Shown piece after piece: positions 41,740-60,301 of a stretch of 64,000 nucleotides of DNA. Origin of the DNA: Nocardioidaceae bacterium (GTDB taxonomy: Bacteria; Actinomycetota; Actinomycetes; Propionibacteriales; Nocardioidaceae); the NCBI GenBank assembly GCA_030655315.1, contig JAURVT010000043.1, forward strand, positions 1 through 64,000, written 5' to 3'. A model generated the notes under the pieces. The model saw only the letters and a program-made list of their open reading frames with translations, ran no database searches and was not told the origin of the DNA. A program made the translations under genes and the position numbers. Numbering within the stretch: the first letter of the stretch is position 1; each line of letters starts with the position of its first letter.

Positions 41740-41811
41740 CCGCACACCCCGAGTTGGCGGTGCCTCACCGGCCCATGGGCCTGTGAGGCACCGACAACTT
41801 CTGCGTGTGGG
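41740..41811. terminator. Long imperfect palindrome between convergent fkbp and hrpA
   Basis: The core CGGTGCCTCA (41758-41767) pairs with TGAGGCACCG (41783-41792) around a GGCCC/GGGCC top. Outer bases (CGCACACC... with ...GCGTGTG) extend the stem to about 30 bp with mismatches. It lies between the stops of opposing genes and probably ends both. Confidence 0.7.
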
Positions 41812-45707: not shown

Positions 45708-45760
45708 GGGCCCCTCCAGTGTCGCAAGACCGGCCAACGTGCCCCGGCGGTGGCCCCCAC

Positions 45761-45829
45761 GTCCGCGATCTGATGCCCTGTGGTGGTCACGGCGGTCCGA
45801 TGAGGACCACAGGGCATCAGATAGCGGAC
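45761..45829 (-). terminator. 24-bp-armed palindrome after the CPBP protease gene
   Basis: Arms 45761-45784 and 45806-45829 are complementary in 23 of 24 positions, with a 21-base spacer that holds GGTC/GACC-like bases. On the minus strand it follows the stop of the gene at 45840 by 10 bases. It is longer than a normal terminator stem. Confidence 0.7.
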
Positions 45830-45839
45830 GGGGGCGGCG

Positions 45840-57320: not shown

Positions 57321-58166
57321 ATGACCGACACCGTTGACGCCGTCCCGACCACCTGGAACGCCTCGGGCGAGTACGAGGACATCCGCTACGAGACCACCGA
57401 CGACGGCATCGCCAAGATCACGATCTGCCGCCCCGAGGTGCACAACGCCTTCCGCCCGCAGACGATCGTCGAGATCTCGCAGGCGCTCACGGTGGCGCGC
57501 GAGGACACGTCGGTCGGCGTCATCATCCTCACCGGCGAGGGCGACAAGGCGTTCTGCTCCGGCGGGGACCAGCGCGTCCGGGGCGACAGCGGCTACCAGA
57601 GCGAGGCCGGCGCGGTCGGCCGGTTCCACGTCACCGACCTGCACGTGCAGATGCGCCGCTGCCCCAAGCCGATCGTGGCCATGGTCGCCGGCTGGGCCAT
57701 CGGCGGCGGCCACGTGCTGCACCTCGTCGCCGACCTGACGATCGCCGCCGACAACGGCCGCTTCGGCCAGGTGGGCCCCAAGGTCGGCTCGTTCGACGGC
57801 GGCTTCGGCGCCAGCGTGCTGTCGCAGCTCGTCGGGATGAAGAAGGCCAAGGAGATCTGGTTCCTGTGCCGCCAGTACGACGCCGCCGAGGCCCTCGAGA
57901 TGGGCCTGGTCAACACCGTCGTGCCGCTCGCGGACCTGGAGACCGAGACGGTGAAGTGGTGCCGCGAGATGCTCGCGCTGTCCCCGTTCGCCCTGCGCCT
58001 CCTCAAGGCCAGCTTCCACGCGGCCGAGGACGGCTACGCCGGCATCCAGCAGCTCGCCCACGACACCAACCTGCTCTTCTACGGCTCCGAGGAGGCGCAG
58101 GAGGGGCGCGACGCGTTCAAGGAGCGCCGCACGCCCGACTTCACCCAGTTCCCCCGCCGCGCCTGA
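57321..58166 (+). CDS. menB: 1,4-dihydroxy-2-naphthoyl-CoA synthase MenB
   Basis: Ring closure of o-succinylbenzoyl-CoA in menaquinone synthesis. It has 281 residues from ATG 57321. It is a crotonase-fold protein, with family marks [52 protein letters not shown] (active-site Asp) and the C-terminal [18 protein letters not shown] lies 6 bases before the ATG, close to a leaderless -10 box. No other men gene lies in the window. Confidence 0.95.
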
Positions 58167-58255
58167 CCTGAGGGTCCCGGCATCCCGCCTGACTGCGTCG
58201 CTCGGGGCTCCGACGGACACGAACGGTTCGGTGTCGGGATCGTGGCCGGCCCGGG

Positions 58256-58395
58256 GTCTCGGTGGGTGAGACGATCCGGCGCTGACCATGGCAAACAGGT
58301 GCCTCACACGGTGTATTCACCACGGGAAGCGCCCGTTTCCCTTGGTCGGTGTGACGCCTGTGGCGGGTGGGGTGGGCCGGTCCACCCACCGAGAC
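58256..58395 (+). ncRNA. Putative rod-like structured RNA element, copy 1
   Basis: The outer stem is 13 bp perfect (58256-58268 with 58383-58395). The inner hairpin at 58290-58341 (GGCAAAC...) has two weakened pairs compared with the other copies (right arm ends TTTCCC). The apex GGTG-TATT-CACC is the same in all copies. No promoter was found, so transcription is unproven. Confidence 0.4.
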
Positions 58396-58451
58396 GGCCA
58401 CCCGGCCGCAGGGAGTCGGCGGCGCGGCCCCGTCCGTAGGTGCCTGTCGGT

Positions 58452-58525
58452 GAGTACCCCGGCGGCGCCGCACTCGAACCGTGGGCGCGGTCAGTCGCCG
58501 TCGGTGCGGTGCCACCGGGGTGCTC
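58452..58525 (+). other. Second hairpin of unit 1
   Basis: A 22-bp stem (58452-58473 with 58504-58525); 19 pairs are Watson-Crick and the three differences are G-U compatible. Units 2 and 3 keep shorter versions (GCACCCC/GGGGTGC), and the truncated unit 4 has lost the right arm. Confidence 0.5.
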
Positions 58526-58587
58526 GAAGGACGAAGGGCGCAGCGAGGGACGGGGCCGCGGGGTGTCGGGCTTGTGGCCGGCCTCGG

Positions 58588-58727
58588 GTCTTGGTGGGTG
58601 AGACGATCCGGCGCTGACCGTGGCAAACAGGTGCTTCACACGGTGTATTCACCACGGGAGGCACCCGTTTGCCTCGGTCGGTGTGACGCCTGTGGCGGGT
58701 GGGGCGAGCCGGTCCACCCACCGAGAC
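58588..58727 (+). ncRNA. Putative rod-like structured RNA element, copy 2
   Basis: The outer stem 58588-58600 pairs with 58715-58727 with one G-U. The inner hairpin is 58622-58673. In the stem, positions that are G-U in copy 3 are A-U here, and the reverse. Confidence 0.4.
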
Positions 58728-58910
58728 GGTCACCCGGCCGCAGGGAGTCGGCGGCGCGGACCCGTCCGTAGGTGCCTGTCGGTGTGCACCCCGGCGGCGC
58801 CGCACCCGACCCGTCGGCGCGGTCGGTCGCGGTGGAGCTGGGGTGCTCGCACGTCGAAGGGCGCAGCGAGGAACGGGCCCGCGGGATGTCGGGCTCGTGG
58901 CCGGACACAG

Positions 58911-59050
58911 GTCTTGATGCGCGAGACGATCCGGCGCTGACCATGGCAAACAGGTGCTTCACACGGTGTATTCACCACGGGAAGCGCCCGTTTGCCTCGG
59001 TCGGTGTGACGCCTGTGGTGGGTGGTGCCAGCCGGTCCACCCACCGAGAC
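58911..59050 (+). ncRNA. Putative rod-like structured RNA element, copy 3
   Basis: The inner hairpin 58945-58996 has a 16-bp stem with one mismatch and one G-U. The outer stem (58911-58923 with 59038-59050) has decayed to partial pairing. Confidence 0.35.
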
Positions 59051-59233
59051 AGCCACCCGGCCGCGGGGAGTCGGCGGCGCGGCCCCGTCCGTAGGTGCCT
59101 GTCGGCGAGCACCCCGGCGGCGCCGCACTCGAACCGTCGGCGCGGTCGGCCGCGGTGGAGCTGGGGTGCTCGCACGTCGAAGGGCGCAGCGAGGGACGGG
59201 GCCGCGTGGTTTCGGGATGGTGGCCGGCCTCGG

Positions 59234-59373
59234 GTCTTGGTGGGTGAGACAACTCAGCGCTGAGCATGGCAAACAGGTGCTTCCCACGGTGTATTCACCA
59301 CGGGAAGCACCCGTTTGCCGTGGTCGGCGTGCCCCCTGTGGCAGGTGGGGCGGGCTGGTCCACCCACCGAGAC
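59234..59373 (+). ncRNA. Putative rod-like structured RNA element, copy 4
   Basis: The outer stem 59234-59246 pairs with 59361-59373 with one G-U. The inner hairpin 59268-59319 pairs further (GCTTCCC with GGGAAGC), a change that lengthens the stem compared with the other copies. Confidence 0.4.
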
Positions 59374-59460
59374 GGCCACCCGGCTGCCACGAGGAACTAC
59401 CGCCGGCCTCGTCCGTAGGTGCCTGTCGATGAGCACCCCAGCGGCGTCGCACCCGAGGCG

Positions 59461-59510
59461 CCGGCGCGGTCGGCCGTCGTCGCCGCGACGCGTGGCCGGC
59501 CGAGCGCCGG
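59461..59510 (-). terminator. Hairpin after the alpha/beta hydrolase gene
   Basis: CCGGCGC-GTCGGCC (59461-59475) pairs with GGCCGGCCGAGCGCCGG (59494-59510) with small bulges. It is 6 bases beyond the stop on the minus strand, at the edge of the repeat array. Confidence 0.55.
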
Positions 59511-59515
59511 ACCCC

Positions 59516-60301
59516 TCAGGACAGGAAGTCGCGCACCATCGGCAGCAGGTAGTCGGCGCGGAGGGTAACGGTCATGTGGGTGGTGCCGGGGAGGATGGCC
59601 AGGCGGGCGCCGGGGATCTTCTCGACCATCTGCGCGGCGTGGGCGTTGGTCGTGAAGTCGTGGTCGCCCTGGACGACCAGCGTGGGCGCGGCGATGGTGG
59701 CGAGCTGCTCGTCGGACCAGCCGACCAAGGTGGCGCCGAGGCCCTGCATCTTGGCCAGGAAGTCGTCGAAGTGCTCGGGGTGGGGCGAGAGCGCGTCGTA
59801 GGTCCGGCGCATCTCGGCGAAGTCGTCCGCGGTGGGCATCCGGGTGGACGTGGCCATCTTCCCGGGGTCGGTGAGGTCCTCGTGGATGCCGGAGGTGTCG
59901 ACCGACGCCGAGATCGGCACGATCGACCGGACACGCGACGGGTGGCTGATGGCCAGCTCGATCGCGATCGCGCCGCCGAGGCTGTGGCCGAGGACGTCGG
60001 CCGACTCGATGCCGAGGTGGTCGAGCACCGCGACGACGTCGGCGGCGAAGGTCCCGACGCTCATCGGACGGTCGGTGTCGTTGGTGCGGCCGTGGCCCTG
60101 GAGCTCGATGCCGATCACCTGGCGGGTCTCGGCGAGCGTGGGCAGCAGGGCGTGGAAGTCGAGGTCGATGGCCAGCACGCCGCCGTGCAGCAGCACGAGC
60201 GGAGGTCCCTCGCCGTGCACCTCGTGGTAGACGCGGACGCCGTCGACGTCGACGTGGCCGCTGCTGGTGGGCCCGGTCGGGGTGAGGGGCGTGGGGGTCA
60301 T
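59516..60301 (-). CDS. Alpha/beta hydrolase
   Basis: It has 261 residues from ATG 60301 (GCAGGAGGAACC upstream). Nucleophile elbow GHSLGG (Ser107), oxyanion segment LVLLHGGVLA, acid in VVQGDHDF and His in LPGTTHMTV form the triad. It has no lid-specific motif, so the substrate (ester, epoxide, or C-C bond) is open. It is probably the last gene of a leftward set with a heme-degrading-domain gene and an oxidoreductase. Confidence 0.9.
   Translation of the reverse strand: MTPTPLTPTGPTSSGHVDVDGVRVYHEVHGEGPPLVLLHGGVLAIDLDFHALLPTLAETRQVIGIELQGHGRTNDTDRPMSVGTFAADVVAVLDHLGIESADVLGHSLGGAIAIELAISHPSRVRSIVPISASVDTSGIHEDLTDPGKMATSTRMPTADDFAEMRRTYDALSPHPEHFDDFLAKMQGLGATLVGWSDEQLATIAAPTLVVQGDHDFTTNAHAAQMVEKIPGARLAILPGTTHMTVTLRADYLLPMVRDFLS

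Follow-up and report, generated by a model that had tools for sequence, protein, structure and literature searches.

A tandem array of nested palindromes in a Nocardioidaceae genome belongs to a dispersed intergenic repeat family

Between two convergent genes of the DNA stretch analysed here (the window, 64,000 nucleotides at its full length), a gap of about 1.35 kb (58167-59515) is occupied by four palindromic units in tandem. What is such an array? A first-pass annotation of the window had proposed an array of small RNAs, a protein-binding site or a multicopy genomic repeat as alternatives, and had called for a covariance-model search of related genomes, a covariation test and a comparison with Rfam. 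It had also described the gap as gene-free, in agreement with our own codon-usage gene finder, which calls zero genes inside it.

The array as one locus of a dispersed repeat family

The four tandem copies are real: the units measure 323-332 bp and follow each other in register with spacings of 332, 323 and 323 bp (Table 1). The starts first given for them (58256, 58588, 58911 and 59234) were correct and correspond to the box B starts of units 1 to 4, and the GGTG-TATT-CACC apex was found to be the same in all four aligned units. The units show 75-90% identity to unit 2, with a mean column identity of 89% in the alignment of the four, and unit 1 resembles the other units only weakly at its left end, up to about position 58236. 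Boxes B and C are separated by 11 bp in units 1 to 4 alike and boxes C' and B' by 31 bp; units 3 and 4 also match a wider dyad pattern, and no box A was recognised in unit 1. CRISPR repeats are far shorter than these units. A coding reading, raised by a MAN... frame recurring on the + strand of three window units, was rejected on an in-frame stop observed by eye after box C in one C37 unit.

Table 1. Coordinates of the array, its boxes and its flanking genes in the window
Feature	Coordinates	Strand	Remarks
Left flanking gene, enoyl-CoA hydratase/isomerase (PF00378)	57321..58166	+	
Unit 1	58174..58505	+	332 bp in register; weakly alike at left end
Unit 2	58506..58828	+	323 bp; most typical of the copies
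Unit 3	58829..59151	+	323 bp; degenerate B box; outer stem not formed
Unit 4	59152..59480	+	Most diverged; right part without separate hairpin; end approximate
Box A	58533..58552 (unit 2); 58856..58875 (unit 3); 59179..59198 (unit 4)	+	3-4 mismatches to consensus
Box B	58256..58272 (unit 1); 58588..58604 (unit 2); 58911..58927 (unit 3); 59234..59250 (unit 4)	+	
Box C	58284..58296 (unit 1); 58616..58628 (unit 2); 58939..58951 (unit 3); 59262..59274 (unit 4)	+	
Central dyad CACGGTGTATTCACCACGG	58307..58325 (unit 1); 58639..58657 (unit 2); 58962..58980 (unit 3); 59285..59303 (unit 4)	.	From sequence and alignment
Box C' (inverted)	58335..58347 (unit 1); 58667..58679 (unit 2); 58990..59002 (unit 3); 59313..59325 (unit 4)	-	
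Box B' (inverted)	58379..58395 (unit 1); 58711..58727 (unit 2); 59034..59050 (unit 3); 59357..59373 (unit 4)	-	
Right flanking gene, alpha/beta hydrolase (PF00561)	59516..60301	-	Convergent with left gene

A 256-bp piece of unit 2 gave 37 blastn matches in the genome of the window (G000, 4.18 Mb). In the same genome, box C (GTTTGCCACGGTC, at most 1 mismatch) was matched 47 times and box B (GTCTCGGTNNGNGAGAC, at most 1 mismatch) 37 times, versus 0 for each reversed-pattern control; the 15-mer of box A was matched 53 times versus 14 in the control, and its 20-mer (at most 2 mismatches) 41 times versus 0. Four of the 47 box C matches and 7 of the 37 box B matches fall outside the mapped loci. From this genome 27 regions were taken. 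Element-like matches defined 22 of them; the other five surrounded isolated box matches and contained no element. Paired C-C' cores, 26 in number with a span of 62-64 bp (60-67 allowed), were located at 15 loci; at 16 loci B and C boxes follow each other in the order expected, and the union of both sets is 19 loci. The repeat family to which the window array belongs is thus dispersed over about 19 loci and often tandem, with two to four units per array as a common arrangement (C9, C27, C45, C19, C37, C54, C43 and C55). The 37 blastn matches and the 47 box C matches versus 0 establish the multicopy repeat among the alternatives first proposed. Where complete, the unit is a nested inverted repeat, A-B-C-dyad-C'-B'-A', whose linkers are nearly free in sequence and restricted in length.

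Other forms were also observed. A short unit with A and A' only, in which B and C boxes were not recognised, lies between two full C54 units (L109:5200-5294). The two-unit locus L125:4415-5140 (C6, 50 kb) combines A boxes with a diverged core (ACGGCGAATTC) and is possibly a transitional form. A possible second family of long intergenic palindromes, with arms CGGTGCCT... / GCACCGACA, was encountered at 41752-41799 of the window, L117:1889-1942 and L121:8258-8307, two of these three CGGTGCCT-type palindromes being between convergent genes. Another long hairpin, with ATCTGATGCCCTGTGGT... arms and codirectional genes on either side, occupies 45756-45834 of the window.

Pairing, boxes and related palindromes in other genera

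Folding of the 140-nt cores of units 1 to 4 with DNA parameters gave z values of -4.3, -5.8, -4.3 and -7.8, well beyond chance, and the whole 323-nt unit reached -6.9 with RNA parameters. An outer 13-bp stem enclosing a nested stem had been attributed to each unit, and a separate hairpin to most of them. In the best DNA folds, however, the outer stem is absent from unit 3, and unit 1 forms the outer stem without the nested one; as for the separate hairpin, unit 1 has a strong one (z -5.1), units 2 and 3 have weaker ones (z -3.3 and -2.4) and unit 4 has none (z +0.9), so that the earlier wording "in each" was inexact.

The stem differences between copies had been interpreted as the sign of a conserved fold, an interpretation left unsupported after the other loci were added. 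In the alignment of 25 cores from the window's genome, 82.7% of the cells pair versus 80.5% in shuffles, none of 500 shuffles being as high. The covariation score of these cores exceeds that of 499 of 500 shuffles and is reached by the remaining one, yet three inner stem pairs are broken in 13, 13 and 10 of the 25 units, and relatedness alone can produce such a score. RNAalifold assigns to the 25 cores a covariation term of 0.06 kcal/mol. If pairing were important, the linkers would be expected to remain complementary. Between the arms, the B-C linkers are not: all 12 elements compared, which come from 9 loci, have z between -0.8 and 1.7. For the A-B linkers there is weak complementarity in each of 10 elements (z 1.0 to 3.2), three of 12 cores (window unit 2, C40_14k and C6) are complementary at z > 2, and the inner palindrome of C19 is perfect. 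The coordinates were entered by hand for this test and for those of gaps and divergence, box B' of unit 2 being off by one in the complementarity test. Core pairing and A-B complementarity are real, but relatedness, together with the symmetry of a binding site, can account for them; a fold maintained through compensatory substitutions is not supported.

In 16 arms from 12 loci, chosen for their 22-bp B-C gap, the pairwise difference is 55% in the B-C linker versus 11% in box B and 15% in box C, the box figures being flattered because the boxes were located by similarity. Three of the 22 linker columns (1, 14 and 21) are conserved, and two of these lie close to, or right at, the edge of a box. 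After merging the units of one array to one value per arm, and after removal of a C19 unit with a 49-bp B-C distance (C box with 3 mismatches) and of B hits overlapping box C or C', all 31 B-C gaps (16 loci) measure 11-12, 21-22 or 30-32 bp. Left and right gaps are unequal within one element, with 11 and 31 bp in the window and 22 and 31 bp in C54. The gap classes suggest whole-turn helical steps, a phasing that was not relied on: taking the three length classes as independent gives P of about 0.1, the best period among those tried is 9.5 and not 10.5, A-B gaps of 30, 32 and 38 bp do not fit whole-turn steps, and the B'-A' gaps are poorly phased.

In the covariance-model search, 22 out of 294 family genomes, G000 being one of them, matched the core model with E no higher than 1e-4; of the matches that were folded, many are long palindromes whose central words are related. 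Of 394 genomes belonging to the class, two contain the dyad CTTCCCACGGYGNATTCRCCGTGGGAAG (at most 3 mismatches), namely G000 and its relative G113. In G113, an outer-box pattern gave 34 matches versus 3 in the control, 32 of which pair into 16 dispersed elements, and all 16 are exactly 88 bp long, spans of 40-140 bp being allowed. Their pairwise difference is 1.6% in the outer 19-bp boxes, 43.6% in the 11-bp spacers and 17.8% in the dyad. When the 23 variable column pairs were compared with the expectation from independent columns, 10 pair below it, 10 equal it and 3 exceed it (29/60, 30/59 and 37/52), and the five box substitutions are all one-sided.

In another relative, G007, eight loci were read and yielded six elements built on a 22-bp palindromic box, of which five measure 84 bp and one 85 bp. 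Mumia quercus (Nocardioidaceae) carries one element with GTTTGCCACGGGCCCGTGGCAAAC on both sides. A pattern scan of GTDB species genomes for the long C...C' pair, which may omit the window's own genome, returned 36 stretches; seven were folded, and those of Mumia quercus and Leucobacter resembled long palindromes. Related genera display the same plan with box sequences of their own, and the common central words suggest that the sister families are probably homologous. Besides the main family, G007 contains another repeated palindrome with CGCCGAGGTACGGATTCC... arms (L202:5375-5436 and L204:2195-2264), and GCCGACCCGGCAGAAA words are repeated, in part as an inverted pair, in L088 of G279 (about 1441-1652).

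A conserved hairpin was rejected in view of the RNAalifold term, the ambiguous pair counts, the unpaired B-C linkers and the little pairing constraint in the sister family. The same data bear on the small RNAs first proposed. An array of structured small RNAs would account for tandem units of low folding energy and for a core covariation score exceeding that of shuffles, but we consider it extremely improbable: pairing is not maintained in the linkers or in the sister family, a search for promoters of the sigma-70 type had no match in the array, and the comparison with Rfam gave 0 matches at gathering score for the whole window. The 22 matches obtained at a permissive Rfam threshold, 19 of them to miRNA models, with a best E of 0.025, are all far below the gathering scores and were discarded as hairpin noise. 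The conserved boxes, their kept spacing and the free linkers are easier to reconcile with a protein-binding platform of double-stranded DNA than with an RNA.

Position at gene ends, origin and proposed role

In G000, 21 of 21 loci are intergenic, 11 between convergent, 8 between codirectional and 2 between divergent genes; two more loci (L125, convergent, and L126, codirectional) bring these counts to 12, 9 and 2. The G113 sites are convergent in seven cases, codirectional in nine and divergent in none, and the six G007 sites are all codirectional. Background gaps were taken from the same stretches with the gene finder, a rough tool based on simple codon usage, whose training set was 22 long frames from the window. 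Divergent gaps are rare among the pooled sites of the three genomes (2/45 versus 68/299 gaps, P 9e-4); in G000, convergent gaps hold more sites than expected (12/23 versus 37/180, P 8e-4). The 23 loci include C13, C14, C7 and C6 at 50 kb, with partial or diverged matches only; a repeat count dropping these four, thus restricted to the 19 loci where a core is paired or both B and C boxes are present, gave 1/41 divergent (P 3e-4) and 9/19 convergent (P 0.008). For G000 alone, the divergent deficit has P 0.06 versus all gaps and P 0.002 versus gaps of at least 100 bp. Pfam matches were obtained for 16 of the 20 flanking proteins scanned (78 flank positions in total); they point to common enzymes, regulators and a membrane protease, and no functional theme common to the 20 was seen. 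Seven tRNA genes are present in 6 of 37 loci, one of which, L231, has its tRNA gene adjoining the element.

Such positions could also be those of bidirectional terminators, or of hairpins protecting the 3' ends of mRNAs, that act as RNA and consist of repeated sequence by chance. The strong folding of the units is compatible with this explanation, as are the 15 of 16 G113 elements at most 42 bp downstream of a stop codon and the 7 of 16 between convergent genes. It is nevertheless very unlikely in our judgement: no T-tract terminator was found in 58100-59560 (0 versus 0.3 in shuffles), pairing in G113 exceeds chance in only 3 of 23 variable column pairs, with five one-sided box substitutions, the B-C linkers are unpaired, and 1.3 kb with four units is far more than a terminator requires.

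The family is lineage-specific. Box A has 41 matches in G000 and 0-3 in each of 293 other genomes of the family, the relatives listed for comparison including no second genome of the genus of G000. A blastn search of 58 genomes matched 14, and outside G000 the matches were short and weak, the best having E 2.4e-7 over 56 query bases. At C27, two units separate a polyprenyl synthase gene (PF00348) from an Rv2175c-like gene (PF18367), a pair that is convergent in the relatives too. This junction was compared with 28 other loci (27 genomes), six of which were not readable across. The gap is 701 bp in G000 versus 0-42 bp in 11 of the 22 readable loci of relatives; one further gap measures 147 bp and ten 503-1028 bp, several of these containing, by eye, another reading frame. 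No long palindrome was seen in these other 11 junctions; where a best hairpin was computed for a relative, its score is at most 11, versus 16 in G000. As to a phage or plasmid origin, two patterns were without exact match in IMG/VR and unit 2 was without blastn match in plasmid and phage collections.

These observations bear on the chief rival of a binding platform, namely selfish, non-autonomous mobile repeats (MITE- or ERIC-like) whose boxes would bind a putative transposase or recombinase of their own and whose location at 3' ends would reflect tolerated insertion. Dispersal, lineage specificity, the intergenic position of all 21 loci and the C27 junction, with its short gap in half of the readable relatives, are all in agreement with mobility, and REPs likewise lie between codirectional and convergent genes (PMC3733652). 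We regard this rival as possible, though somewhat unlikely. On the other side, the boxes of G113 are near-identical while its spacers differ by 44%, which is not expected of inert copies of one master element; no clear element end or target duplication was delimited by eye in the outer flanks of 44 A boxes and 16 G113 elements; and a transposase partner was not found in a search for Y1_Tnp (PF01797). The earlier statement that the array has no transposase holds for Y1_Tnp, the only transposase searched, which is absent from G000 and from six of seven further genomes, G007 and G113 among them.

The lone Y1 transposase gene, in G009, adjoins a TnpB-like frame (TnpB by eye) and therefore looks like part of an ordinary IS605-type element. 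A sister palindrome lies about 1.5 kb from it on contig C33 (28142-28233 and 29765-30130). A Y1/RAYT partner, being absent from G000, was discarded, and the proximity in G009 was treated as a probable coincidence.

Among the alternatives first proposed, the protein-binding site is the best-supported function, as judged from the G113 boxes, spacers and pairing and from the linker divergence in G000. Because the boxes are conserved, their spacing kept, the plan two-fold symmetric and the linkers free and unpaired, we read the units as binding platforms. One or more putative proteins would occupy the double helix in a complex of two-fold symmetry, in which case the box sequence and the spacing matter and base pairing of the arms does not. 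At sites that follow stop codons closely and often separate convergent genes, this complex could form a transcription boundary or roadblock, or alternatively play an architectural role as a chromosome anchor. That the boxes are half-sites of putative sequence-specific DNA-binding protein(s) acting in one of these ways at gene ends is a proposal that we believe about as much as we doubt. The elements may have spread in this lineage after its split from the related genera, local multiplication into tandem arrays following. Gene conversion could be another way to keep the boxes alike.

A broader generalization is more speculative, and on present evidence unlikely: Nocardioidaceae would share a class of nested-palindrome sites behind genes, with boxes that changed along with each lineage's fast-evolving putative protein, these sites serving as boundaries or anchors and being tandem-expanded in the present genome.

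Comparison with known intergenic palindromes

Dispersed bacterial palindromes, such as REPs, ERIC repeats and terminators, are usually taken as hairpins. The sister family separates this reading from that of a binding site, box sequence and spacing being kept and pairing not. If the binding platform is true, there would be a putative sequence-specific protein acting at gene ends, with exact sites available to isolate it, and other "structured" intergenic repeats of high-GC bacteria would merit the same test.

Bidirectional intrinsic terminators are likewise palindromes right behind stop codons and between convergent genes. The present family differs from them by an array without T-tract, strictly conserved boxes and little pairing constraint in G113.

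REPs are partnered with RAYT, whereas a Y1 (RAYT-type) transposase was not found in G000, G007 or G113. REPs are intergenic dispersed palindromes of 20-40 bp between codirectional and convergent genes (PMC3733652), and BIMEs combine several palindromes and are, together with REPs, reported to bind several proteins (PMC2817692). The G000 family is similarly made of dispersed intergenic palindromes between codirectional and convergent genes. In contrast to the REP length given in PMC3733652, the units here measure 84-332 bp (323-332 bp in G000, 88 bp in G113 and 84-85 bp in G007), and they combine several box types at restricted spacing in tens, not hundreds, of copies. Predicted REP candidates number thousands per genome in three Actinomycetota genomes (PMC12306157), so that the mere presence of short palindromes is no novelty in that phylum. 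No literature on such elements in Nocardioides or Nocardioidaceae was found among the matches listed.

ERIC repeats are imperfect palindromes, and the present family is, as they and MITE-like repeats are, a dispersed, imperfect and lineage-specific palindrome. It is distinguished from them by its tandem arrays, its near-random linkers of restricted length, the lack of a recognised target duplication and the reuse of the same plan with other boxes in related genera. E. coli K-12 has some 30 ERIC copies (PMC10969869); the ERIC type is closer than REPs in length and copy number, and the RU-1 and RU-2 intergenic repeats measure 127 and 168 bp (PMC2759123). The family described here is a new variant among the dispersed intergenic palindromes of the REP/BIME/ERIC-like kind.
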